A stretch of 64,000 bases of DNA from Streptantibioticus rubrisoli (lineage in GTDB: Bacteria; Actinomycetota; Actinomycetes; Streptomycetales; Streptomycetaceae), in the NCBI RefSeq assembly GCF_024436055.1, contig NZ_JANFNH010000004.1:1-64000 (forward strand). The letters are read 5' to 3'. This document shows positions 32,666-54,192 of this stretch, piece by piece. The stretch's first letter is position 1. The number at the start of each line of letters is the position of its first letter. The notes beneath the pieces are model-generated. The model was not told the origin of the DNA and searched no databases. It saw only the letters and a program-made list of their open reading frames with translations. Both the position numbers and the translations under genes were made by a program.

Positions 32666-33865
<1,200 letters not shown>

Positions 33866-34125: not shown

Positions 34126-35649
34126 ATGACGGTCTACCAGGCACCTGGCACACCCGGCAGCGCCGTGACCTTCCGCTCCCGGTACGAGAACTGGATAGGC
34201 GGCCAGTGGACCGCCCCGGTGGACGGCCAGTACTTCGAGAATCCGACCCCGGTGACCGGGGAGACGTTCACCGAGGTCGCCCGCTCCACGGCCGCGGACA
34301 TCGAACTCGCCCTGGACGCCGCCCACTCGGCGGCGCCCGGCTGGGGCCGAACCGCACCGGCGGAACGAGCCGCCGTGCTCGGCAGGATCGCCGACCGGAT
34401 CGAGCAGAACCTGACCCGGCTCGCGGTCGCCGAGGTGTGGGACAACGGCAAGCCGATCCGCGAGGCGCTCGCCGCCGACATCCCGCTGGCCGCGGACCAC
34501 TTCCGGTACTTCGCCAGCGCGATCCGGGCGCAGGAGGGCTCGATCGCGCAGCTCGACGACGACACCGTGGCGTACCACTTCCACGAACCGCTGGGCGTGG
34601 TCGGCCAGATCATCCCGTGGAACTTCCCGATCCTGATGGCCGCGTGGAAGCTGGCGCCCGCGCTCGCCGCGGGCAACGCCGTGGTGCTCAAGCCCGCCGA
34701 GCAGACCCCGGCCTCGGTGCTGGTGCTGGCCGAGCTGATCCAGGACCTGCTGCCGCCGGGCGTGGTCAACATCGTCAACGGCTTCGGCGTGGAGGCGGGC
34801 AAGCCGCTGGCCGCCAACTCCCGGGTGGCCAAGGTCGCGTTCACAGGCGAGACCACCACCGGCCGCCTGATCATGCAGTACGCGAGCCAGAACATCATCC
34901 CGGTCACCCTGGAACTGGGCGGCAAGAGCCCCAACATCTTCTTCGCGGACGTGGCGCGCGAGCCGGACGAGTTCTACGACAAGGCGCTGGAGGGCTTCAC
35001 CATGTTCGCCCTCAACCAGGGCGAGGTGTGCACCTGTCCGTCCCGGGCGCTGATCCAGTCCAGCGTCTACGACAGCTTCCTCGGCGACTGCCTGGAGCGG
35101 ACCCGCTCCATCCGGCAGGGCAACCCGCTGGACACCGACACCATGGTGGGCGCCCAGGCCAGCAACGACCAGTTGGAGAAGATCCTCTCCTACATCGACA
35201 TCGGCACCGCCGAGGGCGCCAAGCTGCTCATCGGCGGCGAGCGCGTCGACCTCGGCGGCGCGCTCTCCGGCGGCTACTACATGGCGCCGACGATCTTCGA
35301 GGGCCACAACGGGATGCGGATCTTCCAGGAGGAGATCTTCGGCCCGGTCGTCGCGGTCACCCCGTTCGACGGCTTCGACGACGCGATCTCGCTCGCCAAC
35401 GACACGCTGTACGGCTTGGGCGCGGGAGTGTGGACCCGGGACGGCAACACCGCCTACCGGGCGGGCCGCGCCATCCAGGCGGGGCGGGTGTGGACCAACT
35501 GCTACCACGCCTATCCCGCACACGCGGCCTTCGGCGGCTACAAGAACTCCGGCATCGGCCGGGAGGGCCACAAGATGATGCTGGACCACTACCAGCAGAC
35601 CAAGAACATCCTTTGCAGCTACAACCCCAAGAAACAAGGATTCTTCTAA
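34126..35649 (+). CDS. Aldehyde dehydrogenase (AcoD/ExaC type)
   Basis: The protein has 507 aa; GAGGAG at 34111-34116 supports ATG 34126. It carries out NAD(P)-dependent oxidation of an aldehyde, probably acetaldehyde or chloroacetaldehyde by family likeness. Motifs in order are [28 protein letters not shown], the general-base Glu in LELGGKSPN, catalytic Cys in [18 protein letters not shown], and the C-terminal [20 protein letters not shown]. In many streptomycetes this enzyme is followed by DUF779. Here it is not, but a DUF779 gene with a leftover ALDH tail lies at 47.6 kb. Confidence 0.95.
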
Positions 35650-36098
35650 AGCCAGTAACAGGGCCGCCCGGCATGGAAGTTGACAGCCGGGTGACCCTCC
35701 TTCTCGACAACAGAGCGGAGAACGATCTCCCCTGTTACGCGCACAGCAACATGGCGCTTGCCGCAGGAAGTTCGGTGTCTGTTTTTTTGGGCTGTCTATC
35801 GACCAAGCCGTCGTTGCAGCTGGCGACCTACCGTTGGTCGTCTTCCCACGCGACAGCTACTTGGGGGTCGGTCAAGGAGAACAGCACCGCCCTCCGTGCC
35901 ACGAGCGCGTACAGCATCATGCACCGGCCGAACCCAAGCCACCGTCTGACTAGCGCAGATACCGACCTCCGGCACACAGCGCCGATCCGGCGAGGGACTA
36001 CCTCGGCGGCCCCGCAGGGATAGGCCGCGCTTTCACGGGGAGGAGTGAGCCACAAGATCCGATCGGAAGAACCGGCCGCACCAAGGACGGAGGAAGCC
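35650..36098. other. Intergenic region with no recognisable gene
   Basis: This 450-bp region is lower in GC than its flanks. It contains a run of seven T at about 35783-35789. Short open frames on both strands have poor codon bias and no recognisable domain. It marks the left edge of the accessory part of the window. Confidence 0.5.
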
Positions 36099-36230
36099 GT
36101 GAAAAGGCCCATCATCCGCCATCCCGCCACCTTGACGACCGCAGTCCTCGTTGCGATTGCCACACTGTTCTGCGTATGGCTTGTTGTGGAACTGGCAGTT
36201 CCGATGTTCGGACACACCACCCACAAGTAG
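36099..36230 (+). CDS. Small single-span membrane protein
   Basis: The protein has 43 aa from GTG 36099, with GGAGG at 36089-36093 and 5-nt spacing. It begins KRPIIRHPATLTT, has one hydrophobic span (about residues 14-35, AVLVAIATLFCVWLVVELAV) and ends GHTTHK. An in-frame GTG at 36045 would extend it by 18 charged residues, but GGGGAGGA is too close there. The positive-inside rule suggests N-terminus in. No function is known; tiny proteins of this kind occur beside stress genes such as csbD, as here. Confidence 0.72.
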   Translation: MKRPIIRHPATLTTAVLVAIATLFCVWLVVELAVPMFGHTTHK

Positions 36231-36557
36231 GGCTCTGTCAGCCGCAGCGGTCGCTGCCACGGTCGTCGCAAGGCGCTTCAACCCCCCGCCGCGACGCCAA
36301 CGACAGCGGCCGACGAAAGGTGGTCATGTCCTGTGGCGCACCGGATAGGCGCAGCGCGCGACGCAAGAAGTTCCCTCCCAGCGATGGGGGCGGCGGGCTG
36401 CGAGCCCCTCGCGGGGCACTTGGGTGCCTGGACGAGGACCGCCCAGCCAGGGTGGTACCCCCACCTTGGAAAATCGGCCGCACTTGCCAAACAGCCGGGT
36501 GGACCCCCTCCTTCGAGGGTGTCCACCCGGCTGTCCCGAAGTGAACTGGTGTCAGGG
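36231..36557. other. Intergenic region between convergent small genes
   Basis: This 327-bp region has no convincing gene. It contains a GGTGGTACCCCCACC near-palindrome at about 36450-36465 and the terminator at 36491-36534. Confidence 0.5.
36491..36534. terminator. Bidirectional terminator between small membrane genes
   Basis: A perfect 14-bp stem (36491-36504 with 36521-36534) encloses a further CCCTCC/AGGG stem with a TTCG loop. It sits between the convergent genes ending at 36230 (+) and 36558 (-). Confidence 0.85.
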
Positions 36558-36725
36558 TCACCATCGGTACCAGCGGGACCGGCTCGCACCTTCACCTGCG
36601 CGGACCAAGAATCCGAGCAGCCAGATGGCCAGGACCACAACCGCGACCCACCAAAGGATCTTCAGCGCGAAGCCCGCGCCGAAGAGGATCAGAGCAAGCA
36701 GCAGAACCAAAAGCAAGGGACCCAT
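36558..36725 (-). CDS. Small hydrophobic membrane protein (55 aa)
   Basis: The protein has 55 aa, MGPLLLVLLLALILFGAGFA through a KILWW turn to a second span and a basic, Trp-rich end (RSRWYRW). GGAGG lies 9 nt before ATG 36725; ATG 36731 is a closer in-frame alternative. Two short hydrophobic stretches (2-20 and 25-40) flank the LKILWW segment. I recall this as a widespread streptomycete hydrophobic protein found beside csbD-type genes. It is divergent from csbD at 36861, so they share a 135-bp control region. The role is unknown; membrane stress is a guess from context. Confidence 0.82.
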   Translation of the reverse strand: MGPLLLVLLLALILFGAGFALKILWWVAVVVLAIWLLGFLVRAGEGASRSRWYRW

Positions 36726-36860
36726 TGTCATACACCTCCATCACAGCCACTGCCCGCACCGTGGGTGATCATTCCTGCAAGTGGGGGGTTTGTCAGTCTC
36801 GTAAGTGGTGAGGTGATGTGGGATCACACGCTGGAATGAAATCGGTGAGAGGCACGGGAT

Positions 36861-37121
36861 ATGAGTGCCGAGCAGAAGGCCGGGGCGAAGATCGAAAAGA
36901 CAGTAGGCGCAGTCAAGAAGGCCATGGGCAAGACTGTCGGCGACGACACCTTGACCGCCAAGGGCGAAGCCGAGAAGGCCAAGGGTGACGCCCGCGCCGC
37001 TGAGGAAAAGAGCAAGGACTTCCTCGGTCCGCAACAGGTCCTCCCCGGGCGGGGAGATGGAAGCAAAGGGCGCGGACGTGGCCTGGTGCCCCCGCCCGTT
37101 GCTGCGCCCGGTTTCACCTGA
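36861..37121 (+). CDS. CsbD family stress protein with abnormal C-terminal extension
   Basis: The protein has 86 aa from ATG 36861. Residues 1-54 are a standard CsbD domain: AEQKAGAKIEKTVGAVKKAMG and then LTAKGEAEKAKGDARAAEEK. CsbD proteins usually end within a few residues of the KTKD position, at 55-65 aa. Here the frame runs on for about 30 Gly/Pro/Arg-rich residues (LGPQQVLPGRGDGSKGRGRG) unlike the family, so the original stop was probably lost by frameshift or deletion. CsbD proteins belong to general stress regulons in several bacteria. Confidence 0.82.
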   Translation: MSAEQKAGAKIEKTVGAVKKAMGKTVGDDTLTAKGEAEKAKGDARAAEEKSKDFLGPQQVLPGRGDGSKGRGRGLVPPPVAAPGFT

Positions 37122-37337
37122 CCGTAGAAGCCGCCGAGGTGGCCGTCCGCCGCAGGCTTGACCGTGCGCTTGAACCCGCTTTCTGCCCAGGGGCTCGGCG
37201 GCGGTGGCGCGAAACACCAACCGCCCCCAGCTTCCAATGACCTCGGGCAGCCTTCTGGCCTACTTCGTCGGCCAGCGCAACCGCGACCTACATGGCGTCA
37301 GCCCCTTTCAGGGGGCGTCGGAAACCGGTGGGCTCGC

Positions 37338-38906
37338 TCAGGTCCTTGGCCGGGGCGGGCCTTGCGGACGCGGTCGCGCTGCGCCCAGGCGCTCGGCCGC
37401 GCGGACGATGTTGCGGGCCATACCGCCGAAGACGACCGCGTGGAACGGCGAGACGCTCCACCAGTACAGGTGGCCCAGCAAACCGCGCGGATGGAACACC
37501 GCCCGCTGCCGGTAGCGCACCTTGCCCGCTGCGCCGTCGTCGGCTCGCTCCACCCGCATCTCCAGCCAGGCCAGGCCGGGCAGGCGCATCTCGGCACGCA
37601 GCCGCAGCAGTCGGCCGCGTTCGATCTCCTCCACCCGCCAAAAGTCCAGCGAGTCGCCCACCCTCAGCCGTCGGGCATCACGCCGACCCCGGCGTAGCCC
37701 GACTCCACCGGCCAGCCGGTCCAGCCAGCCGCGCACGGCCCAGGCCAGCGGGAAGGAGTACCAGCCGTTCTCGCCGCCGATGCCCTCGATGACGTCCCAC
37801 AGTGCCTCCGGCGCGACCTCGGCGTCGCGTTCGCGCACGTCGGTGTACAGGCTGCCGCCAGCCCAGTCGGGGTCGGTGGGCATCGGGTCGCTGGGTGCGC
37901 CGGGCAGGGAAGCCGACGACCAGCGCGTTGTGACCTGGGCGTCGCGGACGCGCCGCAGCGCCAGGGCGACGGCGCCGTCGAAGCCGATGGGATGGCCGGG
38001 AGGATTGGGCACGTAGCGTTCGAGGTCATTCTCCCGGCACACCACCTCGTGCCGCAGGGACTCCGTCAGGGGGCGGGCGATCCGGGCTGGCACCGGCGTC
38101 ACCAGGCCCACCCAGTAGCTGGACAGGCCGGGGGTGAGGACGGGCACGGGCAGGATCAGCCGCCGGGGCAGGCCGGACACGGCCGCGTAGCGGCGCATCA
38201 TGTCACGGTAGGTGAGCACGTCTGGGCCGCCGATGTCGAACGTGCGGTTGACTTCTTGGGGCAGTTCGGCGCTGCCGGTCAACAGGCGCAAAACGTCGCG
38301 CACGGCGATCGGCTGGATCCGGGTGTGCACCCAGCGCGGTGTGACCATCACCGGCAGCCGCTCGGTGAGGTAGCGCAGCATCTCGAAGCTGGCCGAACCG
38401 GAGCCGATGATTACGGCGGCGCGCAGCACGGCGGTCGGCACGCCGGAGTCGAGCAGGATGCGGCCGACCTCGGCGCGGGAGCGCAGATGGGGCGACAGCT
38501 TCCGCTCGGGCACCGACTCGGGAGTCAGCCCGCCCAGGTAGACGAGGCGGCCGACGCTTGCCCGGCGGGCCTGCTCGCCGAAGACGCGGGCCGCCTTGCG
38601 GTCGGTGTCCTCGAAGCCGCGCCCGGTGCCGAGGGCATGCACGAGGTAGTAGGCCACGTTCACGCCGCGCATGGCCCGTGCGACGGAGTCAGGGTCGGTG
38701 ACATCGCCTTGGACGATCTCCACCTGGTCGGCCCAGGAGTGGTCGCGCAGTTGGCGTGGGGTACGGACCAGACAGCGCACTTGGTGGCCTGCGTCGAGGA
38801 GCTCGGGTACGAGTCGGCCGCCGATGTAGCCGGTCGCGCCGGTCACCAGACACATCAGGCCGCCGCCCTCATGGTGCCCGGCCGGTGTGGTCTCGTCGCC
38901 GCTCAT
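37338..38906 (-). CDS. NAD(P)-binding epimerase-like protein with DUF2867 domain
   Basis: The protein has 522 aa from ATG 38906. The atypical SDR domain (about 18-310) has the Rossmann motif CLVTGATGYIGGRLVPELL and GRLVYLGGLTPE. The usual YxxxK catalytic pair is not evident, which suggests a binding or quinone-reductase-like role. The C-terminal 170 residues are a DUF2867-type domain (LWDVIEGIGGENGWYSFPLAW, LRLRAEMRLPGLAWLEMRV, HPRGLLGHLYWWSVSPFH). This two-domain protein is widespread in actinobacteria. The substrate is unknown. It is convergent with csbD. Confidence 0.92.
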   Translation of the reverse strand: MSGDETTPAGHHEGGGLMCLVTGATGYIGGRLVPELLDAGHQVRCLVRTPRQLRDHSWADQVEIVQGDVTDPDSVARAMRGVNVAYYLVHALGTGRGFEDTDRKAARVFGEQARRASVGRLVYLGGLTPESVPERKLSPHLRSRAEVGRILLDSGVPTAVLRAAVIIGSGSASFEMLRYLTERLPVMVTPRWVHTRIQPIAVRDVLRLLTGSAELPQEVNRTFDIGGPDVLTYRDMMRRYAAVSGLPRRLILPVPVLTPGLSSYWVGLVTPVPARIARPLTESLRHEVVCRENDLERYVPNPPGHPIGFDGAVALALRRVRDAQVTTRWSSASLPGAPSDPMPTDPDWAGGSLYTDVRERDAEVAPEALWDVIEGIGGENGWYSFPLAWAVRGWLDRLAGGVGLRRGRRDARRLRVGDSLDFWRVEEIERGRLLRLRAEMRLPGLAWLEMRVERADDGAAGKVRYRQRAVFHPRGLLGHLYWWSVSPFHAVVFGGMARNIVRAAERLGAARPRPQGPPRPRT

Positions 38907-39434
38907 CGTCGATCCCGCCGCCTGTCTGCCTGCTCCTGCTCCGCCGCTGTCGTGTCGTGCGGGTCACCTGTCTCTACAGTGCGGACGTGTTTGACGGAGG
39001 CGCCCGGGAGCGGGGGCCGGGCGGGTGACGGGTAGCCCGAGCGTGGCGCGCCCAGGCTGGCCGAACCGGCCCGGGGCCTGCCGAGTTCGGCGGTGAACCG
39101 TGAGCCGATCAGCGGGCGAGGTCAGGGAGCCACGGCCAGCTCGGAAGGACCGCGAAGCCAGCCAGGAGCGATAGGGGGCTGTAGGCGCCCAGCGGCGAGG
39201 CATACAGGCGAAGCCAGCAGCGGCGGTCAGCCACATGGTGGCGGCCGGAGGCCGCCCGGGCAGACGATGGTGGCGTTGGCGGCCGGAGCGGGCCGGTGTG
39301 GAAGGTGACCGTGACCAGCGCGGACAACCCCTGAGATCACTGCTGTTGCGCCCAGGTGCCGGGCTCGGCGTAGAGTCAGTACATACAGAGCGAAAATGCG
39401 TCAAATTGGGCGAAGCCTGTGAGGGAGTGGCCCG
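38907..39434. other. Intergenic region before the paralogous pair
   Basis: This 528-bp region has no convincing gene. A possible promoter for 39435 is TTGCGC (about 39347-39352) and TAGAGT (about 39372-39377) with a loose spacer of about 19 bp. A minus-strand frame around 39109-39200 ends in a hydrophobic stretch and could be a gene remnant, but it has no ribosome site. Confidence 0.4.
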
Positions 39435-39992
39435 ATGTCAACAGGAACGCTTCTGGAGATCATCATCCCCCTCGTGGTGGTGATCGCTCTGATCGCAGGG
39501 GCGACGGCACTGGTGATCCGTCGCCGCCATCTGCGGGAGCGCTTCGGCCCCGAGTACGACCGAACCGTTGAAGACGCGGACAGCCGTCTGGCGGGCGAGC
39601 GCGAGCTCAGCGCGCGTGAGAAGCGCCATGACGCGTTGGATATCAAGCCGCTGCCCAGCACCACACGGGACCGATATGCGGGGGAGTGGACCCGCGTGCA
39701 GCAGGAGTTCGTGGACCGGCCAGAGGTTGCCGTGCGGGACGCGGACCAACTGGTCACCTCGCTGATGCACGAGCGCGGCTACCCGACCGAAGGCTTCGAG
39801 CAGCAGATGAAGGACCTGTCGGTCGAGCACGGGCGCACGCTCGAACACTACCGGGCGGCCCACGAGGTCGAAACCCTCAGCGTCCAGCACAAGGCCACCA
39901 CCGAGCAGTTGCGGGGTGCCATGGTTCACTACCGCAGCCTTTTCGACGAGTTGCTCTCCGACGGTGGCCAAGCCCGGCACGCCCGCGCCTGA
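39435..39992 (+). CDS. Membrane-anchored protein with W..Q..FVD / HYRSLF domain
   Basis: The protein has 185 aa; GAGGGAG precedes ATG 39435. One N-terminal membrane span (residues 9-28, IIPLVVVIALIAGATALVI) is followed by a basic RRRHLRERFG stop-transfer, so the rest should face the cytoplasm. The body from about residue 75 has WTRVQQEFVDRPEVAVRDADQLV and ends HYRSLFDELL. That pattern is shared with the next gene, so the two form a tandem paralogous pair separated by only 32 bp. No assigned function; the helical, charged body suggests a protein-interaction role at the membrane. Confidence 0.85.
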   Translation: MSTGTLLEIIIPLVVVIALIAGATALVIRRRHLRERFGPEYDRTVEDADSRLAGERELSAREKRHDALDIKPLPSTTRDRYAGEWTRVQQEFVDRPEVAVRDADQLVTSLMHERGYPTEGFEQQMKDLSVEHGRTLEHYRAAHEVETLSVQHKATTEQLRGAMVHYRSLFDELLSDGGQARHARA

Positions 39993-40024
39993 CCCTCGGC
40001 AGCGCGAAGAGACGGAGGACGCCG

Positions 40025-40468
40025 ATGCGACGCGACAACAACACGCCCTATCCCGCCGAAAGCGGCCTGTCCACCGAAGACCTCGCCCAGGCGCGCGAGC
40101 GAACGGCAGACGAAGCGCCGCCACCCGAGGCCCCCGCCTACCCAGGCGAGGGCGCTCCCGCCGGGGCGCCGGACATGGCGGGCACAGAAGCAGACGAGGC
40201 TCCCCAACTCCTGGCCAGCGAGGAGGCGGACAGCTTTCGGGGGCGCTGGCAGGAGATACAAAGCAGGTTCGTGGACGACCCGCGTGAGGCCGTGCACAAC
40301 GCCGATGCCCTGGTCGCCGAAGTCATGCAGACTCTGGCCACCACCTTTGCTGAACACAAGGAGGGCCTGGAGGGCCAGTGGCACCGCGGCGAACAGGTGA
40401 GTACCGAGGACCTGCGAACGGCCCTGCGGCACTACCGGTCGTTCTTCAACCGCCTGCTCACCACATAA
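40025..40468 (+). CDS. Soluble paralogue of the preceding protein
   Basis: The protein has 147 aa; GGAGG (40014-40018) is 6 nt before ATG 40025. It lacks the membrane span of its neighbour; residues 1-70 are acidic, Pro/Ala-rich and disordered. The folded part has WQEIQSRFVDDPREAVHNADALV and ends HYRSFFNRLLTT, aligning with WTRVQQEFVDRPEVAVRDADQLV and HYRSLFDELL next door. The pair is probably co-transcribed and may form a membrane-bound/soluble duo. Function unknown. Confidence 0.85.
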   Translation: MRRDNNTPYPAESGLSTEDLAQARERTADEAPPPEAPAYPGEGAPAGAPDMAGTEADEAPQLLASEEADSFRGRWQEIQSRFVDDPREAVHNADALVAEVMQTLATTFAEHKEGLEGQWHRGEQVSTEDLRTALRHYRSFFNRLLTT

Positions 40469-41002
40469 GCCAGGCGGCGCCCGGTGGTGATCGCCCGTCA
40501 TGAGGCAAACCCGCCTTGGGCGGTGTACGCCACAAAGGGGCGGTCGTCTGGGCGGCCAGGCATGGCCCACGGCTGGTGTAACAGGAGGGCCTGGTGGAAA
40601 GCCGCGGGGCGAACGGTGCCTGCACCTTGGTGGTGCGAGCGCCGGGGTGCCATCGCGAACAAGCCGTAGCGGGCCTTGCGGGCGGGGCCCTTTCGCAGCC
40701 AGCACAGAAGGGAGGCCGAGCAGGAAACGGCACGAGCCCTTCCCCGCAAGGAGGTGGATGCCCCACGCCGATACGTGAGCGCTTCGCCCGTCCCGCCGCT
40801 CTGCCGGACGGCGAAGCACAGCCTTGGGCGGGGACACGAGCGGGTCCCGGGACACATTCACAAATCCCTCTCGGTCCCCGCCAGGCAGTGATCCGTGCCG
40901 GGACGGCCCGAGGCTGAGTTTCGGTCAGGAGGCCGTGCAGGAGAGCCACCCAGGAGGCGCATACCCGCGCGTACCGTCTCCCAAGGCGGGTAAGCGACCG
41001 CC
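40469..41002. other. Intergenic region, no recognisable gene
   Basis: This 534-bp region has several overlapping open frames on both strands, all with Arg/Gly/Pro-biased composition and no domain or ribosome site. I read it as non-coding or decayed sequence. Confidence 0.45.
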
Positions 41003-42478
41003 ATGAAGCGACGTCTCGCCGGAGCAAGGCGACTCATTGCCGTTGATCGGGTGGTGTTCGGCCGGATCGCCGCCCGGCCTTGGCCGTTCGCGGCATCGAC
41101 ACTGCCGCGGCTCAGCCGAGCCGCCGACCACGGTGTGCTCTGGTTCGGGGCGGCCGCCGCGATCGCGGGTTTCGGCGGCACGCCCGGACGACGCGCGGCC
41201 GGGCGGGGGTTGGCGTCGCTGGCGTTGGCATCGGCGGCGGTGAACACCGTGGGCAAGCGGATGGTGCGCCGACCGCGTCCGCTGCGGGATGGGGTTCCGG
41301 TGGTCCGGCAGCTGCGACGGCAGCCGTTCACCACCTCGTTCCCGTCCGGGCACGCCGCCTCGGCCGCCGCCTTCGCGGCCGGAGTGGGTTTTCAATCCCC
41401 GCGCTGGGGTGCGCTGGTGGCACCGGTGGCGGCGTCCGTGGCGTTCTCCAGGGTGTACACCGGCGTTCACTATCCGAGTGACGTGCTGGTCGGCGCGGCC
41501 ATCGGGGTGGCCGCCGCTGTCGTGGTGCGTGCGCTCGGATCCGATCGGCGGGAGCCGAAGCCACCGCGCGCGGCGGCCCCGGCGCTGGACGCCGGTGAGG
41601 GTTTGGTCGTCGTAGTCAACAACACCTCGGGCGTGCCACCGCTTCTGGTGCCGCACGCCGAGCGGCTGCGGGCCGCCGTGCCGAAGGCACACGTGATCGA
41701 GGCGACCGAGGACGACGACCTTCCCGCACTCCTGGAGAAGGCGGCCTGCCTTGCCGCTGAGCGGGGCGGCGCTCTGGGCGTTCACGGTGGCGACGGGACC
41801 GTCAACGCGGCGGCGGCGATCGCCACCCGGGAGGGCGTACCGCTCGCGGTGTTCCCCGGCGGTACACGCAACCACCTCGCGATGAGCCTCGGCGTCCAGG
41901 AGATCGAGGACACTGCCCGCGCTGTGCGGAACGGCCAGGCCACCGCGATCGACCTCGGGTACTTCACCGGAGTCGACGGGGAGCGCGTTGTGTTCGTCAA
42001 CACCTTCAGCGTGGGCGCCTACCCGGAACTGGTGCGCGTCAGGGAACGCTGGTCGCGCCGTCTGGGCAGTTGGCCCGCGAGCGTGCTCGCGGCGCTGCAT
42101 GTGTTGCGCACCGCCGAACCGGTGCCGGTGGTCCTCGGTGGCCAACGGCGCCTGGTGTGGCTGGTGTTCGTGGGGAACTGCGCCTATCGCGGCACCGGAG
42201 TGGCACCCCTGCGCCGAAGCGACCTGGCGGACGGTGTGCTGGACGTGCGGGTGGTGGACGCCGGCGCGTTCGCCCGCACGAGGTTGATGGCGGCGGCCGT
42301 CACGGGAGCGTTGGGGCGTTCCCCGGTCTACTCCGCCAAGAAGCTGCAAGGCCTGCTCATCGAAGGGCTCGGCGAGGACACGCACCTGGCCTACGACGGT
42401 GAAGTCAGGCGTGCCCCGAGCACGGTGCGCATGGCCAAGTCACATAAGGCGCTCGTCGTCTATCACCCCGGAGCGTGA
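41003..42478 (+). CDS. PAP2 phosphatase - diacylglycerol kinase fusion protein
   Basis: The protein has 491 aa from ATG 41003. The N-terminal half (about 30-175) is a PAP2 membrane phosphatase: KRMVRRPRP, FPSGHAASAAAFA and SRVYTGVHYPSDVLVG carry the three catalytic motifs. The C-terminal half (about 195-490) is a diacylglycerol/lipid kinase with HGGDGTVNAAAAIA, FPGGTRNHLAMSLG and LRRSDLADGVLDVR. One chain thus joins a lipid-phosphate phosphatase to a lipid kinase, which could recycle diacylglycerol or polyprenol lipids. The fusion is known in actinobacteria; the substrate here is not shown. Confidence 0.93.
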   Translation: MKRRLAGARRLIAVDRVVFGRIAARPWPFAASTLPRLSRAADHGVLWFGAAAAIAGFGGTPGRRAAGRGLASLALASAAVNTVGKRMVRRPRPLRDGVPVVRQLRRQPFTTSFPSGHAASAAAFAAGVGFQSPRWGALVAPVAASVAFSRVYTGVHYPSDVLVGAAIGVAAAVVVRALGSDRREPKPPRAAAPALDAGEGLVVVVNNTSGVPPLLVPHAERLRAAVPKAHVIEATEDDDLPALLEKAACLAAERGGALGVHGGDGTVNAAAAIATREGVPLAVFPGGTRNHLAMSLGVQEIEDTARAVRNGQATAIDLGYFTGVDGERVVFVNTFSVGAYPELVRVRERWSRRLGSWPASVLAALHVLRTAEPVPVVLGGQRRLVWLVFVGNCAYRGTGVAPLRRSDLADGVLDVRVVDAGAFARTRLMAAAVTGALGRSPVYSAKKLQGLLIEGLGEDTHLAYDGEVRRAPSTVRMAKSHKALVVYHPGA

Positions 42479-42528
42479 GCTCCGCGCGAGCGATCGAGCG
42501 GGGAAGGACATGAGTGGGAGGGGGAGTT

Positions 42529-43446
42529 GTGCTCACCGGGAGGGGGCGCGCCTGGGTGACGGCGCTGGGGCAGACTCCCGTCACGGCCTGGAACGAGGAC
42601 CTCACAGACTGGGCCGCGGCGCTCACCTACTACGCCGTGCTGGCGTTCTTCCCGGTCCTGCTCGTCGTCCTGTCGGTGCTCGGCCTGTCCGTTCCGGGCT
42701 CCGCGCCGGGAGCCATCGACCACATCACCCAGGTGGTGCCCGCCGCCTCCCGCGGGCCGCTTCGAGGAAGTCTGCTGAAGATGTCCCAACAGCCGACTAC
42801 CGCATGGACTTTGGTGGCTCTGGGAATAACGGGCTCGCTGTGGTCGGGGTCCAGCTACCTCAGTGTCTTCCGCCGCGCCCTGCACGCCATGTACGGGGTG
42901 GACAGCCACCGCCCGGTATGGCACACGGCGCTGCGTATCGTGATCACCGCGCTGCTGGTGATCCTCCTTCTCGTGGCCAGCGCCGTCACCCTCATGGCGA
43001 CAGGCGGGACCGCCCGTCGGCTGGGCAGGTTGCTGGACCTGGACGGTGCCACACTCGCCGCGTGGGAGCTGTTGCGGTGGCCCGCCGTGCTGTGCCTGGC
43101 TGTCGTGCTGACACTGGTGGTCTTCCGTACCGGACCCGCCGCCTCCCGGCCTCTGCGCCGGATGGCGCCGGGAGGGGTGGTGGCGGTGCTGCTGTGGCTG
43201 ACCGCGTCGGCTGGCTTCGCCGCGTACGCCTCCCACGTCAGCACCTACCAGCGCGTCTACGGTTCGCTCGCGGGCGTCGCGGTGTTCCTCGTCTGGCTGT
43301 GGCTCTCCAACCTCTCCCTGCTGCTGGGCGCCCAGTTCAACGCCCAACTGGCGAAGGCGGAACGCGGCGACCGCCCTCCGGCGGGCCCGGCGGTGAGGCG
43401 GTGGCGCATGCGCCGACGTTCGCCGGGGAGGCGCACTCGCGGTTAG
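42529..43446 (+). CDS. YihY/RBN family membrane protein
   Basis: The protein has 305 aa from GTG 42529; GGGAGGGGG lies just upstream, and GTG 42514 is a poorer in-frame start. About six membrane segments are present. The family signature LTYYAVLAFFPVLLVVLSVLG and the late GVAVFLVWLWLSNLSLLLGAQFNAQL are clear. YihY proteins were once called ribonuclease BN, but they are integral membrane proteins of unknown, probably transport-related role. It starts 50 bp after the PAP2-DAGK gene, and both are probably one transcript with the small membrane genes that follow. Confidence 0.93.
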   Translation: MLTGRGRAWVTALGQTPVTAWNEDLTDWAAALTYYAVLAFFPVLLVVLSVLGLSVPGSAPGAIDHITQVVPAASRGPLRGSLLKMSQQPTTAWTLVALGITGSLWSGSSYLSVFRRALHAMYGVDSHRPVWHTALRIVITALLVILLLVASAVTLMATGGTARRLGRLLDLDGATLAAWELLRWPAVLCLAVVLTLVVFRTGPAASRPLRRMAPGGVVAVLLWLTASAGFAAYASHVSTYQRVYGSLAGVAVFLVWLWLSNLSLLLGAQFNAQLAKAERGDRPPAGPAVRRWRMRRRSPGRRTRG

Positions 43447-43573
43447 ACGGGCGGTGTGTGGTCAGGGGTGAAACGAACGGGAGCGAGATGGCCTTTGCTG
43501 AAGCCTCATCCGCTGGTGCTGCGCGACTGCGCCTCCGGTTGGCTCCCGCCAATTCATTGAGTGAGGTATGGAG

Positions 43574-43732
43574 ATGATCTTCCTCGTAGCCGCGTTCATG
43601 CTGTTCGGCGTTCTTCTGGGCGCGGTGGTACACCTGCCGTTGCCCGCGACCGTTGCCATCGCCACCGTCATCGTCGGCTGGCTGGTGATCTACCTCGTGC
43701 GCCGGCGACAGTCTCACGATCGAACCAACTGA
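43574..43732 (+). CDS. Small two-span membrane protein (52 aa)
   Basis: The protein has 52 aa from ATG 43574 (GAGG 7 nt upstream); ATG 43568 is a closer alternative. Two hydrophobic segments, IFLVAAFMLFGVLLGAVVHL and ATVAIATVIVGWLVIYLV, are joined by a short LP turn, then RRRQSHDR. Codon third positions suit the genome. No homologue with known function is recalled. It follows the YihY gene by 127 bp and precedes the 43763 gene by 30 bp, so probably lies in the same operon. Confidence 0.75.
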   Translation: MIFLVAAFMLFGVLLGAVVHLPLPATVAIATVIVGWLVIYLVRRRQSHDRTN

Positions 43733-43762
43733 CCACGGGCTAATCGAGTCCAAGGAGAGGAT

Positions 43763-44026
43763 ATGGGTACCGAAACGCCCGTACGCGACCGACCGGCCTC
43801 CTTGCGGTACGCCAACAGTATGGCCGCCGCGTCGTTCATCTTCGGCCTGGTGGGCATTCTGGTGTTCAACGTGCTGTTCGGCCCCGCGGCCATCGTCCTC
43901 GGCGGTCTTGCTCTTCTTCGCGGCACCACCCGCCGCGCTCGTGCCCGCCTTGGAATCTGCCTTGGGGCGGCGGACTTGGTAATGCTGGCCGTTCTGACCT
44001 CCCTAGACCACACCGTGAGCTGGTAG
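43763..44026 (+). CDS. DUF4190-like small membrane protein
   Basis: The protein has 87 aa; AAGGAGAGG precedes ATG 43763. Two membrane spans are separated by a basic loop: NSMAAASFIFGLVGILVFN..GPAAIVLGGLALL, then TRRARARLGICLGAADLVMLAVL. The order of a hydrophobic hairpin with GxxxLG, an Arg-rich loop and a third weak span is typical of DUF4190 proteins. Function unknown. Confidence 0.83.
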   Translation: MGTETPVRDRPASLRYANSMAAASFIFGLVGILVFNVLFGPAAIVLGGLALLRGTTRRARARLGICLGAADLVMLAVLTSLDHTVSW

Positions 44027-44130
44027 TAGAGGACTTGGCCAGCGGTTTTCCACCCAGTGCCCCAGCCCTGTCACAGCCCAAGACCCGAGGCAGAGCGCCC
44101 AACCCCCACGTCGGCCCAAGGAGAATCTCC

Positions 44131-44190
44131 ATGCAGGCACTGATATGGCTGGGCATCCCTCTCATCGCCGGGATCAGCGCCAGCGCATAG
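44131..44190 (+). pseudogene. Truncated small membrane protein, nonsense-broken
   Basis: AAGGAG (44118-44123) and ATG 44131 start MQALIWLGIPLIAGISASA, then TAG at 44188. Streptomycetes carry many small proteins of the form M-ALLWLxIP..A.W...ARRRR; here TAG sits where a Trp (TGG) would be expected, and the frame beyond reads AVAARGRR. This looks like a recent nonsense mutation, followed by further decay downstream to about 44280. The alternative is a genuine 19-residue peptide. Confidence 0.5.
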
Positions 44191-44409
44191 GCGGTCGCCG
44201 CCCGCGGCAGGCGGTGGACGTGCTCCTGCGCCCCGTCGAGGAACCTGCCAGCAAATCCTCAGACGCCGGACGGTCTCGGACCCACATAAACTGGACGAAG
44301 ACCTCCGTACCAAGGCGACGGAGTCTGGAAGATCGAGGAGGTAGCGTGATCGCGAAGTATGCGGCTGCCGGTGCCTGACGGGGGACGACGCCGACGGCAG
44401 TGAGACTGG

Positions 44410-44559
44410 ATGGACACCTACCGGCGGCACGTGGAACACCCGCGTGACAGTGGCCGGGACAAACCCGTTAAACCCGGTCGTGGTCCGGATCCAGAGCTGC
44501 ACACAAACTCTCTGGTGAAGCTGGAGCCGGAAGTAATCGCCTACCGACAGCGGCGGTGA
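44410..44559 (+). CDS. Possible small ORF of unknown function
   Basis: A 49-codon frame from ATG 44410 encodes a charged, soluble peptide (DTYRRHVEHPRDSGRDKPVK). Its TGA overlaps the GTG start of the RNHCP frame (GTGA, 44556-44559). There is no clear ribosome site and third-position GC is low for this genome. It may be a remnant. Confidence 0.3.
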   Translation: MDTYRRHVEHPRDSGRDKPVKPGRGPDPELHTNSLVKLEPEVIAYRQRR

Positions 44560-45035
44560 ACCGCGTCACTCCCCAGTCAAGCCTGCGACCCTGCCAGGGG
44601 AGAGCGAACGGAACCCTGCGCCTCCGAGTTGAAGAAGCCCTTCGACTCGCTGAGGAGCAGAGCACCATCAGCAGAACAACCGAAAACACCGGCTTCACCT
44701 GCGAGAACTGCGGAAAGGCCGTTACGGCACTGGTCAACGGAAGCTACCGCAATCACTGTCCGTACTGCCTGTTCTCACAGCACGTGGACATCACACCCGG
44801 AGACCGTGCCAACGGCTGTCGCGCGCTCATGCGCCCGGTCGCCGTCGAGTACCACTCCGCCAAAAGATACATGATCGTCCATCAGTGCACCGGCTGCGGC
44901 ACCCGCAGCCGCAATCGCATGGCCGACGACCCGCACCAGAGCGACGACCTCGACACCGTCCTCTCTCTGATGCACCAAGCCATCGGCCCTCACGAAGCCA
45001 GACGCCCAAACCCGCGTCGAAGGAGACATATCTGA
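44556..45035 (+). CDS. RNHCP domain zinc-binding protein
   Basis: The domain is clear: TGFTCENCGKAV, GSYRNHCPYCLFSQHVD (the name-giving RNHCP), PGDRANGCRALMRPV and VHQCTGCGTRSRNRM, giving four CxxC/HxxC-like metal-ligand sets in about 85 residues. The only canonical in-frame start upstream is GTG 44556, which adds about 37 residues unlike the family. Relatives start right before the domain. At that point there is an ATC codon (44667) placed 9 nt after a good GAGGAG (44652-44657), so a non-canonical AUC start giving 122 aa is a serious alternative. Function of the family is unknown. Confidence 0.85.
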   Translation: MNRVTPQSSLRPCQGRANGTLRLRVEEALRLAEEQSTISRTTENTGFTCENCGKAVTALVNGSYRNHCPYCLFSQHVDITPGDRANGCRALMRPVAVEYHSAKRYMIVHQCTGCGTRSRNRMADDPHQSDDLDTVLSLMHQAIGPHEARRPNPRRRRHI

Positions 45036-45043
45036 CGCCTCCT

Positions 45044-45087
45044 GCGGCTCCCGCCCACCAGGCCGGGAGCCGCCTTTCTACTCTTTT
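45044..45087 (+). terminator. Intrinsic terminator after the RNHCP gene
   Basis: A 10-bp stem (45044-45053 with 45064-45073) is followed by a pyrimidine/T-rich stretch (CTTTCTACTCTTTT). It starts 8 nt after the RNHCP stop. Confidence 0.85.
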
Positions 45088-45220
45088 CGGCGCCAAAAGG
45101 GGGCCTGACCCGATCCTTCGCCAGCCAGACGCCCTTCGGCCGACCCACTCTAAGCAGTGGGCGGATTGCTCCGTACCGCCAACTCGCTTGCAAACCCTGC
45201 GGGTTGGCCGGATTGCGGTT

Positions 45221-45484
45221 CTACGGATGGCGTTCGATCCGCCAGACCGCGAGGGCGCAGATGCCGCTGCCGATGCCGTAGCAGGCGCCGCGCAGTAGGT
45301 AGGTGGCGGCGTCGGCGCGGCGGGCGCGAGCCCAGCGCCGGACGCGGGAGACGGGAGCGGGCGTGGTGTTGGTGTCCGTGCCCGGCTCCGCGTTCGGCTT
45401 GGTGGTGACGTTCGGCGTCGTGTTCGTGGGGGAGTTGCCGGAAGGCGTGGCCGGGGTGGGGGTGGCGGGCTCACGCTGGGGCAT
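45221..45484 (-). CDS. Hypothetical protein with C-terminal membrane segment
   Basis: The protein has 87 aa from ATG 45484 with AAGGA 8 nt upstream. Residues 1-45 are Pro/Thr/Asn-rich and disordered. The middle is basic (SRVRRWARARRADAATY) and a single weak membrane span follows (LLRGACYGIGSGICALAVW). It may be a C-tail-anchored protein. No family is recognised. It lies downstream of the sigma-factor pair on the same strand, 110 bp after it. Confidence 0.62.
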   Translation of the reverse strand: MPQREPATPTPATPSGNSPTNTTPNVTTKPNAEPGTDTNTTPAPVSRVRRWARARRADAATYLLRGACYGIGSGICALAVWRIERHP

Positions 45485-45594
45485 TGGGACCGTCCTTCGG
45501 TAAGGGTGTCCTGGTGAGGAGCCTGTCGGCGGTCGGTGGCCTGGGAACCGGGGACTGCCAGGCGGGCTCCTTTGCTGTTTGCTGTTTTCGGGGA

Positions 45595-46269
45595 TCAGTG
45601 CTGCAGGCGGTCGGCGATTTCGCGTTCGGGGCGGCAGACCAGGACGCAGTCGGTGTCGTCGCGGGTGGCCAGGCGCTCGACTTCCGCGGTCAGCGCGGGC
45701 TCGCGGGCGGGGGCGGCGGGTCGGTGGCGCCTCAGGAAGAAGCGGCCCATGAACTCCACCATGGCGTCCTCGGCGCCGAGGCTGCTCAGCAGTTGACGGA
45801 GCCAGTGGTCGGCCTCGGCGTTCTCGCCGCGGGCGAGGTGGTGCAGGTGGAGGCAGTAGGCGGCCATGCGGTGGCCTGCCCCGGCGGCGAGCTGCCACCA
45901 GAACTGGGCGCTTTCGGGGTGGTCGGCCTGGTACAGCATGCAGGCGAACACCTGGGCGCCGTCTATGTCGAGGTCCTCCAGCGGGCCGCGGGTCTCGTCG
46001 GGGCCGTCCTCGCCGATGGCGGAGGCCAACTCCTCGACGTGGCTGGCGGCACCGGGCTGGTCGAGCACCGAGCACACGACCGCCGACAACTGGTGCCGGG
46101 CCCGCGAGACGGTCGGCACGTCGTCGTTGGTCTCCCAGGCCCGGCTAGGCGGGGGGACGTATCCGGCGTCTTCGGCGAGATGGCGCAGTGCGGTACCGAC
46201 GTCGATCGGGCGACGCTTGGCCTCCGCCTGCTCGCCGATGTTCGCCAGGAGCTGTTCGATACTGCTCAT
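45595..46269 (-). CDS. Helical-repeat partner of the ECF-like sigma factor
   Basis: The protein has 224 aa from ATG 46269, which overlaps the sigma-factor stop by 4 nt (ATGA). It starts SSIEQLLANIGEQAEAKRRPIDV. From about 90 to 190 it is helical with Sel1/TPR-like units (QFWWQLAAGAGHRMAAYCLHLHHLARG, AEADHWLRQLLSSLGAEDAMVEFMGRFFLRR). No membrane span and no HxxxCxxC zinc anti-sigma motif are visible. Tight coupling to the sigma gene argues that it controls or assists it. Function unknown. Confidence 0.8.
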   Translation of the reverse strand: MSSIEQLLANIGEQAEAKRRPIDVGTALRHLAEDAGYVPPPSRAWETNDDVPTVSRARHQLSAVVCSVLDQPGAASHVEELASAIGEDGPDETRGPLEDLDIDGAQVFACMLYQADHPESAQFWWQLAAGAGHRMAAYCLHLHHLARGENAEADHWLRQLLSSLGAEDAMVEFMGRFFLRRHRPAAPAREPALTAEVERLATRDDTDCVLVCRPEREIADRLQH

Positions 46270-46790
46270 TCGGTGTCCCCTTCCGTCTTCAGAAGCGAGG
46301 GCACCGCCAGTTCCAGGCGCTCCTTGGCCTTGCGGCAGTGGTGACCGACCGTGCTGGCGCTTACGCCCATGTACCAACTGACCTGCTGCACGTCGCACTT
46401 GAGCACGAACCGCAGCACTGCGGCGTCGAACTGCCGCGGAGGCAGCTTGGTCAGCGCCTCGATCACGCCTGCGTCGCCGGGCAGCCTCTTCAGCCTCTTG
46501 CGGAAGGCGCTCAACGCCTCGGATATGACGACCCGTCGGAAGATCGCCCACACCTGCTGCTGCAGATTGCTTTCCTCCAGCAGCGCGTCCCAGTGCCGCA
46601 GGATCTCCAGGAACGCCCGGTGCACCGCGTCCTCGGCGGCCGCGTTGTTGCGCAGCACCACGTAGGCGTAGCGATGGAAGGTCTCCTGGTTGGCCAGGTA
46701 CAGTGCCTCCCAGTCCAAGGGCAGGGGTAGCACGCTGTCCTGAGCCACCGGGGCGCCGCGGTCCTTCGTGGACCTGTCTTCTTCGGTCAT
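46266..46790 (-). CDS. ECF-like sigma factor
   Basis: The protein has 174 aa from ATG 46790 with GAAGAGGA just upstream; ATG 46832 is a poorer alternative. Region 2 is visible as TFHRYAYVVLRNNAAAEDAVHRAFLEILRHW. Region 4 is LTKLPPRQFDAAVLRFVLKCDVQQVSWYMGVSASTVGHHCRKAKERLE, a helix-turn-helix that would read the -35 element. Region 3 is absent, as in ECF factors. Instead of a membrane anti-sigma factor, an overlapping cytosolic helical-repeat protein follows. The trigger is unknown. Confidence 0.88.
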   Translation of the reverse strand: MTEEDRSTKDRGAPVAQDSVLPLPLDWEALYLANQETFHRYAYVVLRNNAAAEDAVHRAFLEILRHWDALLEESNLQQQVWAIFRRVVISEALSAFRKRLKRLPGDAGVIEALTKLPPRQFDAAVLRFVLKCDVQQVSWYMGVSASTVGHHCRKAKERLELAVPSLLKTEGDTE

Positions 46791-47079
46791 GAGTCCTCTT
46801 CGTTGAGGGTTGAAGCGCAGGACGGGCGCCAAGTTCGGTCACGCCGCTCGCTTTTGAGGACTACTCAACCCCGCGGAACGCGCGTACGCGCATCCCCGCC
46901 ATCGCGAGATATGACACCGTGATGATCATTGGCAGCACAACGTGACTGCGTACCATCTGGTAACCCGCAGTGAAGTGCGCTTTCACCGACGGTGACGCAG
47001 CTTGTCCGAACCTTTCGTCAACCCCGTGACGCTAGTCACACCCGAAAGCGGTCGCCGCCCACGTCCGCCGCCACCTTGT

Positions 47080-47304
47080 TCAGGCGGTGTGATGCGGGAG
47101 TTCCCCGGCGGTCGCTGCCCCGAGGCACCGCAGGATGCGGTTGTTGACGTACTCGGGATGCTCGATGGAGGGGCCGTGCCGCGTGTCGGTGACCAGTTCG
47201 ACGTCCACGTTCGGCGTGAGCCGTTGCGCCCGGTCGCGTGTGGGGGAGGCGTGGAGCAGTGGGCTGCGGTCGCCGATCAGCAGCGTCCTCGTCGGCCAGC
47301 GCAC
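47080..47304 (-). pseudogene. Alpha/beta-hydrolase C-terminal remnant
   Basis: The 74 codons read like the last quarter of an alpha/beta hydrolase: TLLIGDRSPLLHASPT is the strand before the acid residue, and TDTRHGPSIEHPEYVNNRIL contains the His-bearing loop near the usual C-terminus. In-frame stops lie upstream (a TGA around 47330) and no catalytic Ser elbow is present, so the gene is truncated. Confidence 0.55.
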
Positions 47305-47595
47305 CGCGGAGGCCCCTTCGGACGTCCCGCGTCACCACATCGACCGCATCTTCACGCCTGAGGCAGACGGCGGACACGGCTAGCGAGGAACTCCCCGTGG
47401 CCGACTCTGGTATGTCTCGGCAGGGGCTGGCACCCCAGCCGCCAAGCGGTAACACTGTTCCATCGGCCGACTCCTGACGCCGGGGGACGTGCCCGCTGGT
47501 TCCCTGCCCCACCGCTGCTCAACGACCAAGATCCGGACCGCGCGCGGACCAACTCCGTTTCGCAGACAGCCGATTCCGTCCGTTGCCGCTGGTCA
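47305..47595. other. Decayed sequence between gene remnants
   Basis: About 290 bp lie between the hydrolase remnant (minus) and the ALDH tail (plus). No intact frame, ribosome site or promoter is convincing. It probably holds further hydrolase and ALDH debris. Confidence 0.4.
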
Positions 47596-47676
47596 GAAGG
47601 GGATGACTCGATGTACCACCATGAGACCGAGGATCCGCTGGTGAGCTACGCCCCGCAGGGGCCCGGGCTGTTCTGA
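47596..47676 (+). pseudogene. Aldehyde dehydrogenase C-terminal remnant
   Basis: The frame EGDDSMYHHETEDPLVSYAP..GLF matches the end of AcoD/ExaC-type aldehyde dehydrogenases, which in the intact gene at 34126-35649 reads [15 protein letters not shown].. and ends GFF. Only about 27 codons are recognisable; the rest of the enzyme is missing. The stop overlaps the DUF779 ATG (TGATG), which preserves the original ALDH-DUF779 coupling. Confidence 0.72.
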
Positions 47677-48086
47677 TGGGTGCGGCCGAGGCGCGCCGGG
47701 TCGGGTGTACCGAGGAGGCGGCGCGGTTGCTGCGCCGCCTCGGGCAGTCGCACGGTCCGTTGATGTTCCACCAGTCGGGCGGCTGCTGCGACGGCAGTTC
47801 GCCGATGTGCTACCCGGCGGGGGAGTTCCTCGTCGGCGACGCCGACGTTCACCTCGGGGACCTCGATGTGCCCGGGATGGATCCGGTGCCGGTCTGGATG
47901 GCGCGGGACCAGTTCGCGTACTGGAGCCATACGTATCTGACGATCGACGTGGTGCCGGGGCGCGGCAGCGGGTTCTCGTTGGAGGCGCCCACCGGCCAGC
48001 GCTTCCTGATCCGGTCACGGCTGTTGACCGACGAGGAGCTCGCAGCGCTGGGCTGGCGGCCTCCGCGAGGGCGGTCCGCGTTGTGA
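47676..48086 (+). CDS. DUF779 family protein
   Basis: The protein has 136 aa; ATG 47676 overlaps the stop of the ALDH remnant by one base. Family marks are HGPLMFHQSGGCCDGSSPMCYPAGEF near residue 26, with paired Cys that could bind a metal, then VWMARDQFAYWSHTYLTIDVVPGRG and FSLEAPTGQRFLIRSRLLTDEE. DUF779 genes usually follow an aldehyde dehydrogenase; here the upstream enzyme has been lost down to its tail. Whether it is still expressed is unclear, as its promoter probably lay upstream of the lost gene. Confidence 0.92.
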   Translation: MGAAEARRVGCTEEAARLLRRLGQSHGPLMFHQSGGCCDGSSPMCYPAGEFLVGDADVHLGDLDVPGMDPVPVWMARDQFAYWSHTYLTIDVVPGRGSGFSLEAPTGQRFLIRSRLLTDEELAALGWRPPRGRSAL

Positions 48087-48405
48087 ACACGTGAACAGCA
48101 AGAGGGTGATGTGGAGGAATAGTGGGTTCCGTTCTGGCTATTCCGCTTGCCGTTACGCATTAACCCCGCAGGCGGTTCCGCAATTGCCCGACCGGCACTC
48201 TGGACAGTCTTCCTGATAATCAGGATGGTCGGTGCACGGATGATTTCCGGCGGGCGTGGCGGCGTATTTCGCGGAGGCGGGATCGGCCCAGTGCGCGGGT
48301 GATCGGGGCGGCAAACGCCGCGGCCCGCACTGTGACAGAAGCGTGACGATGGCGCCGGGTCCCTCCCCTCGGCGGCGGCCGCCGAGCGGTCGTACGGTGG
48401 CGGAC
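48087..48405. other. Low-GC intergenic region
   Basis: This 319-bp stretch is clearly lower in GC at 48110-48290 than the rest of the window. It holds the doubtful Cys-rich frame on the minus strand and the upstream region of the I78-like gene. No promoter is clear. Confidence 0.45.
48153..48314 (-). CDS. Doubtful small Cys-rich ORF
   Basis: A 53-codon frame (TTG 48314; no ribosome site) ends in HPCTDHPDYQEDCPECRSG and CGTAC, with five Cys and two His spaced like a zinc knuckle. Third-position GC is low. It may be a real short protein or a chance frame. Confidence 0.25.
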   Translation of the reverse strand: MPPRSPAHWADPASAKYAATPAGNHPCTDHPDYQEDCPECRSGNCGTACGVNA

Positions 48406-48630
48406 ATGGCACCCTCTGCACCCTCACCGACCCCCGGTCCGGTACCGGAGGACAACATCGAGCGCTACGTCGGCATGACCCCGCGGGAGGCCGAGCGGAC
48501 CGCCGTCCGGCACGGCTGGACGACGGTGCGGGCGCTGCCGCCGGACGCGGTGATCACCCTGGAGTACCTCGCCGGGCGGCTGAACCTCACCGTCCAGGAC
48601 GGCGTGGTCACCCGCTGCTGGGCGGGCTGA
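48406..48630 (+). CDS. I78-type peptidase inhibitor-like protein
   Basis: The protein has 74 aa from ATG 48406; the ribosome site is weak. After a Pro/Ser lead it has the I78 inhibitor pattern: YVGMTPREAERTAVRHGWTTVRALP, then ITLEYLAGRLNLTVQDGVVTRC. I78 proteins are compact inhibitors of serine peptidases. This copy has no signal peptide, so it would act inside the cell, unlike the secreted S1 proteases nearby. A strong hairpin follows. Confidence 0.85.
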   Translation: MAPSAPSPTPGPVPEDNIERYVGMTPREAERTAVRHGWTTVRALPPDAVITLEYLAGRLNLTVQDGVVTRCWAG

Positions 48631-48642
48631 GCGCGGACGCGC

Positions 48643-48690
48643 CGACGGCCCGCGGGGGGAGTTGTGCGTACCGCTCCCCGCGGGCCGTCG
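48643..48690. terminator. Bidirectional terminator
   Basis: A perfect 15-bp stem (48643-48657 with 48676-48690) has an 18-nt loop. It lies between the I78-like gene and the end of the convergent PAP2 gene (48722). Confidence 0.88.
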
Positions 48691-48721
48691 ACGGTTTCTG
48701 GTGTGTTGTACGGGTTCCGGC

Positions 48722-49741: not shown

Positions 49742-50278
49742 ACAATCGACGTTACAGCGTGTGACGGCTGTGTTTGGTCGAACGGACCTTTTTGTGATGA
49801 CGATGTGATGTGGCAACAGTCACGCGATGTCGGGCAGCTCACATTTTTCCACTTGTTCTGAGCGTGGTTGAGCGGTGGCGCCGCAGCGGTGTTCCGCATT
49901 TACGCCGGTTATTTTCCGGTGGATTCCCGGGAATTGGTCCGGCCGGTTTTCCCGGTCCGGGTGAAATCTGACACATCGTCAGCTTCGGTCGCCGGTCGCG
50001 TTCCGTTTCAAGATCCTTAACCTTGGAAGGCCAACGCCGGGTCAACGCACGGGGACGCCGGAGCGACTCCTGGTGTGACCAAGGCCACCTTGTCGCTACC
50101 CCGTCGGCGCTGGCCGGAAGCCGATGGTCGTCCCGGGAGGGCGACCGACACCTGCGGCCGGGCCGCCCCACTCGCGTAACCTGGCGGCTCACCCGCCCCA
50201 TTTCGCCGGGTACCGCGGCCAACGGGCGCGGAAGGCGGCGCACGCGGGGCATGAGCGGACACCAGTGGAGGTGCATGG
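49742..50278. other. Divergent intergenic region, PAP2 / MFS
   Basis: This 537-bp region has no convincing gene. The left part (49742-49990) is low in GC and should hold both promoters. A GTGATGACGATGTGATGTGG stretch near 49794 has internal repeats. No regulator gene is adjacent to the MFS exporter. Confidence 0.45.
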
Positions 50279-51919: not shown

Positions 51920-51981
51920 CGTCAGCGGCGACCAGGAAAGATCGATCAGCGACGATCGACCGTCCGCACGAGGAGCCGTCC

Positions 51982-53163: not shown

Positions 53164-53282
53164 GCCCGCGGGGGTGAATCCTCAACCGCCGCGAGGCGGT
53201 CGCCCGACGGCGGGGACCGGCGGTGTGAACCGGCCGCTACCCGCTGTGGGCACAGGGGCACGGGCCCTTGGACCGGACCCGT

Positions 53283-53309
53283 TGGGGGCAGGCCCCCGGC
53301 CTGCCCCCA
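53283..53309. terminator. Perfect hairpin at the end of the SepF-like gene
   Basis: A perfect 12-bp stem (53283-53294 with 53298-53309) has a CCC loop and abuts the stop of the minus-strand SepF-like gene. It lies between convergent genes. Confidence 0.85.
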
Positions 53310-54145: not shown

Positions 54146-54181
54146 CGTGCCTGATTGGCTGCTGACGTGCCTAACTGGCTG
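54146..54181 (+). promoter_or_regulatory. Paired 16-bp direct repeat upstream of DUF5685
   Basis: CGTGCCTNNNTGGCTG occurs at 54146-54161 and 54166-54181, an exact 20-bp period (two helical turns). It ends 11 nt before the start codon and overlaps the ribosome-site region. It is a plausible operator. Confidence 0.6.
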
Positions 54182-54192
54182 ATGGGGGAGAG

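Follow-up and report, generated by a model that had tools for sequence, protein, structure and literature searches.

SCC elements are islands that occupy the 3′ end of rlmH, a conserved protein gene, and their units stack. The closest known case that we have seen for the locus described here is PAISt, at the 3′ end of bacA in Streptomyces turgidiscabies (PMC4057263). The pSLS integrase group is given as an exception to tRNA-gene targeting among AICEs (PMC3218068), and the site of the Samy phage as a radical-SAM gene and not an aldehyde dehydrogenase (ALDH) gene (PMC12924846). Our search of open-access papers found no literature on an ALDH integration site. Here we analysed the first 64,000 nucleotides of a Streptantibioticus rubrisoli contig (NZ_JANFNH010000004.1), hereafter the window, and conclude, with a probability of roughly 0.87, that a member of a site-specifically integrating island family entered the 3′ end of its ALDH gene. 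The case is built by sequence comparison, through which we document a precise insertion, an exchanged tail, a common right end, tandem arrays and a linked integrase.

A sequence-only reading of the window had described the last 27 codons of an ALDH joined to a DUF779 gene, and an intact ALDH at 34126-35649 with no DUF779 beside it. The second observation held as claimed, and so did the short frame itself: positions 47596-47675 encode EGDDSMYHHETEDPLVSYAPQGPGLF followed by a stop that overlaps the DUF779 start (TGATG). Its ALDH likeness, however, extends over only about 20 codons (47615-47675). Window positions 47615-47676 match the 3′ end of the ALDH gene of G002, a genome of the same genus, at 87% identity over 62 bp, and the E value of this match (1.4e-14) means that the scrap is not a chance resemblance. 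The first codons (EGDDSM) are instead part of the right end of an insert, and this right end is also present in an insert of G001, another genome of the genus. PF05610 matches only once in the source genome (G000; 7.26 Mb in 103 contigs), at the DUF779 gene. Direct tblastn or blastn with the window's own ALDH gave no match in the scrap region, because the tail of that ALDH was exchanged.

We found that in G002 window positions 28673-35607 are joined directly to 47615-54570, with 35608-47614 absent, and that the single ALDH of this genome ends LLVSYAPQGLGLF, its stop overlapping the DUF779 start. The ALDH-DUF779 site is likewise uninterrupted in G007, which belongs to another genus. In the window 12 kb separates the two genes, which have both stayed on the + strand; each border has a copy of the gene end, and the reading frame is preserved. 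Judged from these alignments, the window carries an insertion of about 12 kb inside the ALDH 3′ end, and the scrap is evidently the native C-terminus of the window's own ALDH, displaced and still overlapping DUF779. The earlier suggestion that the locus had been split by rearrangement was therefore right in essence, since genes adjacent in G002 and G007 are separated here. Comparing both sites with related genomes, as that reading had advised, gave neither of the outcomes it foresaw: the two sites are one site in relatives. Simple relocation is ruled out by the empty site in G002.

Table 1. Features of the ALDH-DUF779 locus, in window coordinates
Feature	Position	Strand	Evidence
ALDH (ExaC) gene, host-derived part	34126..35607	+	unbroken match to G002 up to 35607; NCBIfam ExaC
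Left boundary core: left half-site CCAGCAG and spacer ACCAAGAAC	35592..35607	+	boundary alignment; core repeat in 22 junctions
Replacement ALDH tail, 13 residues and stop, presumably insert-derived	35608..35649	+	abrupt departure from G002
Cargo	35650..47524	.	absent from G002; no integrase found
CsbD-like protein	36861..37121	+	PF05532 31.6 bits, below its cut-off of 40
NAD(P)-binding protein with DUF2867	37338..38906	-	PF11066 E 8.6e-44; PF13460 E 2.4e-20
PAP2 phosphatase and diacylglycerol-kinase-type protein	41003..42478	+	PF01569 E 8.1e-20; PF00781 E 8.9e-15
YihY/BrkB-type membrane protein	42514..43446	+	PF03631 E 1.2e-54
RNHCP-domain protein	44556..45035	+	PF12647 E 1.2e-31
Sigma-70-type factor	46266..46832	-	PF08281 E 7.5e-07, over its cut-off
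Conserved right end of insert	47525..47614	+	HMM of 20 other junctions without ALDH part: 47526-47609, E 6.6e-15
Paired motif TCCGGACC(A)-N4-CGGACCAA, possible integrase arm site	47532..47552	+	16/17 scored positions
Right boundary core (half-site, spacer, half-site), somewhat diverged	47617..47643	+	boundary alignment; core repeat in 22 junctions
Displaced native ALDH tail (ALDH-like similarity from about 47615)	47635..47675	+	87% over 62 bp to G002 ALDH end; continuous with G002 from 47615
DUF779 gene	47676..48086	+	PF05610 E 2.5e-45

The proteins encoded by the window's unit (Table 1) are, in our functional reading, of envelope or stress type. Small CsbD-like proteins are encoded by the window's insert and also by that of G112 (L187 2179-2430, read by eye). 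Just inside the right end of the window's insert lies a short protein fragment (47080-47304, - strand) which, over 57 residues, shares 40% identity with a frame located between ALDH and DUF779 in G167 (L058). The spacer differs between the window's two cores (ACCAAGAAC at the left, ACCGAGGAT at the right), which counts against the island model.

In G001 the distance between ALDH and DUF779 is 44.6 kb, and a third junction copy lies between the two genes. Identity of the flanks is highest between G000 and G002 (93.2% left, 89.6% right), while G001 stands at 89.4-89.5% (left) and 85.5-85.6% (right) to both. Given that G000 and G001 are occupied and the closer G002 is empty, either separate insertions or an excision is required. 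It is possible, if rather doubtful, that the inserts of G000 and G001 go back to a single old insertion that later had its cargo replaced: over 269 bp, reaching beyond the family-wide motif, their right ends show 82% identity, but blastn finds nothing else in common between the two inserts and no shared cargo, and the empty G002 would need a precise excision.

Using the window's right end as query, we found related DNA in other genomes; the junction family to which it belongs occurs across Streptomycetaceae. In the common layout a right end containing TCCGGACCA-N4-CGGACCAA is followed by a variable stretch, a core of the type CACCAGCAG-ACGAAGAAC-CTGCTGGTG and an ALDH tail. The core is an inverted repeat formed by the codons of a conserved QQTKNLLV, and the target in G002 reads CAGCAG-ACCAAGAAC-CTGCTG. 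A leave-out HMM of 20 junctions, built without the window and G001, matches the window with an E value of 6.5e-24, or 6.6e-15 without the ALDH part; on 20 shuffled windows the full leave-out model found nothing at E≤10, and the best E value of the model without the ALDH part was 1.6. This second model has one weak extra match in the window (59417-59452, E 0.044). A 22-junction model, whose training set includes the window, matches 324 of 394 genomes, many via ALDH itself. Among the 150 matches listed for the 394 genomes there are at least 85 full junctions, in at least 61 genomes, and at least 46 right ends without a full ALDH tail, in at least 38 genomes. What follows these 46 right ends (G205, G130, G354 and others) is not a full ALDH tail; they may be array ends, decayed sites or insertions elsewhere.

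Several of these junctions form arrays. G290 has four, spaced 6.4, 7.0 and 11.1 kb; G263 has six in 69 kb, one of which is a right end only; and G258 has three within a 25 kb ALDH-DUF779 interval, two of them incomplete on the left. Across units, the spacing between junctions is about 1.4 to 33 kb. One match that covers the junction lies on a 608 kb linear plasmid of Streptomyces microflavus (NZ_CP054927.1 341609-341771, L204), near a non-ribosomal peptide synthetase gene. A phage record with an ALDH tail (MT835641.1, L207) was rejected, as ALDH residues 75-507 are present and it looks like bacterial DNA.

A fragment beside the ALDH end of G075, together with a fragment in G290, led to an integrase that has matches in 136 of the 394 genomes. 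In 26 of the 30 best integrase loci an ALDH tail or full junction lies near the 3′ end of the integrase gene, in convergent arrangement; the distance to the tail is about 164-179 bp in the 17 loci with one open frame followed to its end, but L151 has about 0.7 kb there and L124 1 kb. The other four loci (L133, L149, L152 and L153) have no ALDH tail nearby, which counts against the island model. Eight of the integrases (about 465 residues) were compared, and R273, K321, YDLR (396-399) and Y431 are invariant among them, so that the R, K, H/YxxR and Y of tyrosine recombinases are present in all eight sequences (R273, K321, Y396/R399, Y431). We take these residues to have the catalytic roles. PHROGs assigned three of three proteins as integrase (E 9.2e-28 to 3.6e-31). 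Pfam PF00589 stayed below its cut-off in all eight, NCBIfam gave nothing over cut-off and solved structures gave no match by sequence. The low PF00589 scores and the lack of a match to a solved structure count against the island model. A PF00589 search of 14 genomes found no match in the ALDH-DUF779 interval of the window or G001, and this lack of PF00589 matches at ALDH sites is explained by the integrase group scoring below the Pfam cut-off. Pfam-based searches for mobile elements would thus miss this group (L124-L153, alignment A2).

In 25 of the 26 loci a copy of the right end's paired motif lies 130-144 bp inside the left end (13-17 of 17 positions), and 22 of 22 right ends have the motif, the mean of shuffles being 10 of 17; it was picked by eye from the same sequences on which it is scored, and is a pattern to test. 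The integrase, divergent and tyrosine-type by its predicted active site, is linked to the ALDH tail in relatives, and we infer that it makes the insertions. In the window's insert, tblastn with the eight integrases reached a best E value of only 0.17, and the left end lacks the paired motif at the usual distance (best match 13/17, at 425 bp); both results count against the island model. A check for AICE features found int absent, and no Tra or Rep family among the window proteins given to Pfam. With neither a detectable integrase nor a convincing left arm motif, the window's unit is probably decayed or helper-dependent.

The missing integrase would be expected if the 12 kb had arrived with no site-specific recombinase, by homologous recombination within ALDH at its left border and an illegitimate event at its right border, and the window's two cores are indeed imperfect copies. 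We consider this improbable, since the two boundaries coincide with one and the same short core, and the combination of this right end with an ALDH tail recurs at no fewer than 85 places, often with one integrase group. Site-specific integration, our preferred reading, would proceed as follows. The target would be the inverted repeat in the QQTKNLLV codons of ALDH, and recombination of the ALDH core with the core of a circular island would be carried out by a tyrosine integrase, whose gene lies at the left end in more complete relatives. The island would bring its own last 14 or so codons and a stop, leaving the ALDH whole with a new tail, and the native tail would remain at the far boundary beside DUF779. 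Each insertion would recreate the site, allowing units to stack in tandem.

The ALDH at 34126-35649 is ExaC (NCBIfam NF050026, 943.5 bits, cut-off 900). It is the one close ALDH of the source genome, where the next best ALDH is 45% identical. To place its new tail we compared 78 distinct tails, nine of which have an ILCSY-type ending (I/VLC). The ten tails most similar to the window's include all nine of these (69-74% identity), and all nine come from genomes of genus g10, either at internal junctions or in ALDH genes of junction-bearing genomes. This likeness supports an origin of the window's new ALDH C-terminus in the insert. The idea that the operon had lost its enzyme found no support: by these comparisons the ALDH is the original enzyme, kept in place with its last codons exchanged, and no enzyme was lost. 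Loss by deletion, with the ALDH at 34 kb as a separate copy, would leave the fragment at DUF779 and the intact ALDH elsewhere that we see, but is most improbable given the single, directly joined site of G002 and the single close ALDH of G000. The ALDH of G024 (C7 35567-37027) ends QEKQGFF, versus SPNALGLF in its genus-mate G010, and the DUF779 gene of G024 (C25 56688-57068) is on a different contig from the ALDH and has no ALDH tail; this is possibly another tail exchange.

We also surveyed ALDH-DUF779 spacing in 249 genomes of the family; at the cut-offs used, DUF779 is matched in 141 of them and a close ALDH in 196. The matches listed include 150 ALDH rows from 149 of the 196 genomes, and both genes in 116 genomes, 13 of which have the genes on different contigs. 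There were 107 listed pairings on the same contig. Four far pairings were set aside (G118, on opposite strands at 7.5 Mb; G103 at 1.9 Mb; and G197 twice, at 5.1 Mb), and the 103 retained, all with ALDH and DUF779 on the same strand, comprise 57 with 62-303 bp between the genes and 46 with 4.8-329 kb. Between the two genes, at least 11 of the 46 split pairs have a junction match (in G154 to the tail part only); the other 35 have no junction there among the matches listed, which counts against the island model. Any junction or right end among the matches listed was found in 14 of 46 split versus 2 of 57 tight genomes. Ten inspected split loci of genus g10 have no ALDH tail next to DUF779, which also counts against the island model and means that a split in gap length is by itself no proof of one cause. 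In view of these ten loci and the 35 pairs, we do not claim that every long ALDH-DUF779 gap is such an element; the insertions explain at least some of the genomes in which these usually adjacent genes lie apart.

The cargo of other units is varied. We found a Mokosh pair (MkoA E 1.5e-235, MkoB E 5.9e-76), a GmrSD_N-Schlafen protein, type I-C cas3, cas5, cas8 and cas7 in one G290 unit between two ALDH-tail junctions (L107:890-6970), a polyketide synthase between two junctions of G370, another between ALDH and a junction of G191, and ordinary metabolic genes. PADLOC gave no match for two large cargo proteins, L110:2362-6060 (NB-ARC) and L107:9201-13310. Defence island as a general reading was dropped, there being no clear enrichment: at E 1e-15, 38 PADLOC families were matched among 90 cargo proteins versus 41 among 90 control proteins, in a coarse test with large proteins excluded. 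The cargo set (A3) is 90 of 165 called proteins, leaving out the largest, the G001 inserts and several G263 and G191 units, and the control set (A4) is 90 of 98 proteins; genes in these loci were called by our own simple GC3 rule.

More tentatively, the ALDH end in Streptomycetaceae could be a chromosomal dock at which units stack, resembling a coarse integron, a picture to which we give clearly less than an even chance. An ALDH-specific tyrosine integrase, acting also in trans, would capture integrase-less cassettes of about 1-30 kb, each with the common right end and a spare ALDH tail, and strains would serially collect and exchange immune, metabolic and natural-product modules, the enzyme staying whole with an exchanged C-terminus. 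The conserved junction of about 150 bp and the integrase group provide a marker for a hotspot of gene acquisition in antibiotic-producing bacteria. The locus is also a case of an enzyme's C-terminus exchanged by horizontal transfer, and the ALDH site is a candidate for strain engineering.

Among known systems, SCC elements differ from the ALDH islands in hosts and target and use large serine recombinases. SGI1 at trmE is likewise an island in the 3′ end of a conserved protein gene, with another host and target. As here, several AICEs can accrete at one site in Streptomyces, and decayed AICEs without integrase occur, although AICEs mostly use tRNA genes and carry traB and rep modules (PMC9513070, PMC3218068). 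PAISt resembles the ALDH islands more closely: its entry point is a palindrome in the 3′ end of a protein gene, it has a tyrosine recombinase, the gene end is repeated at each border and once more as an internal att copy, excision is modular, and integrase remnants occur in relatives (PMC4057263). It differs in its bacA target, its 8 bp palindrome and its 674 kb in two modules (PMC4057263), whereas the ALDH islands use ALDH codons and consist of many small units (about 1.4 to 33 kb) with a common right end.
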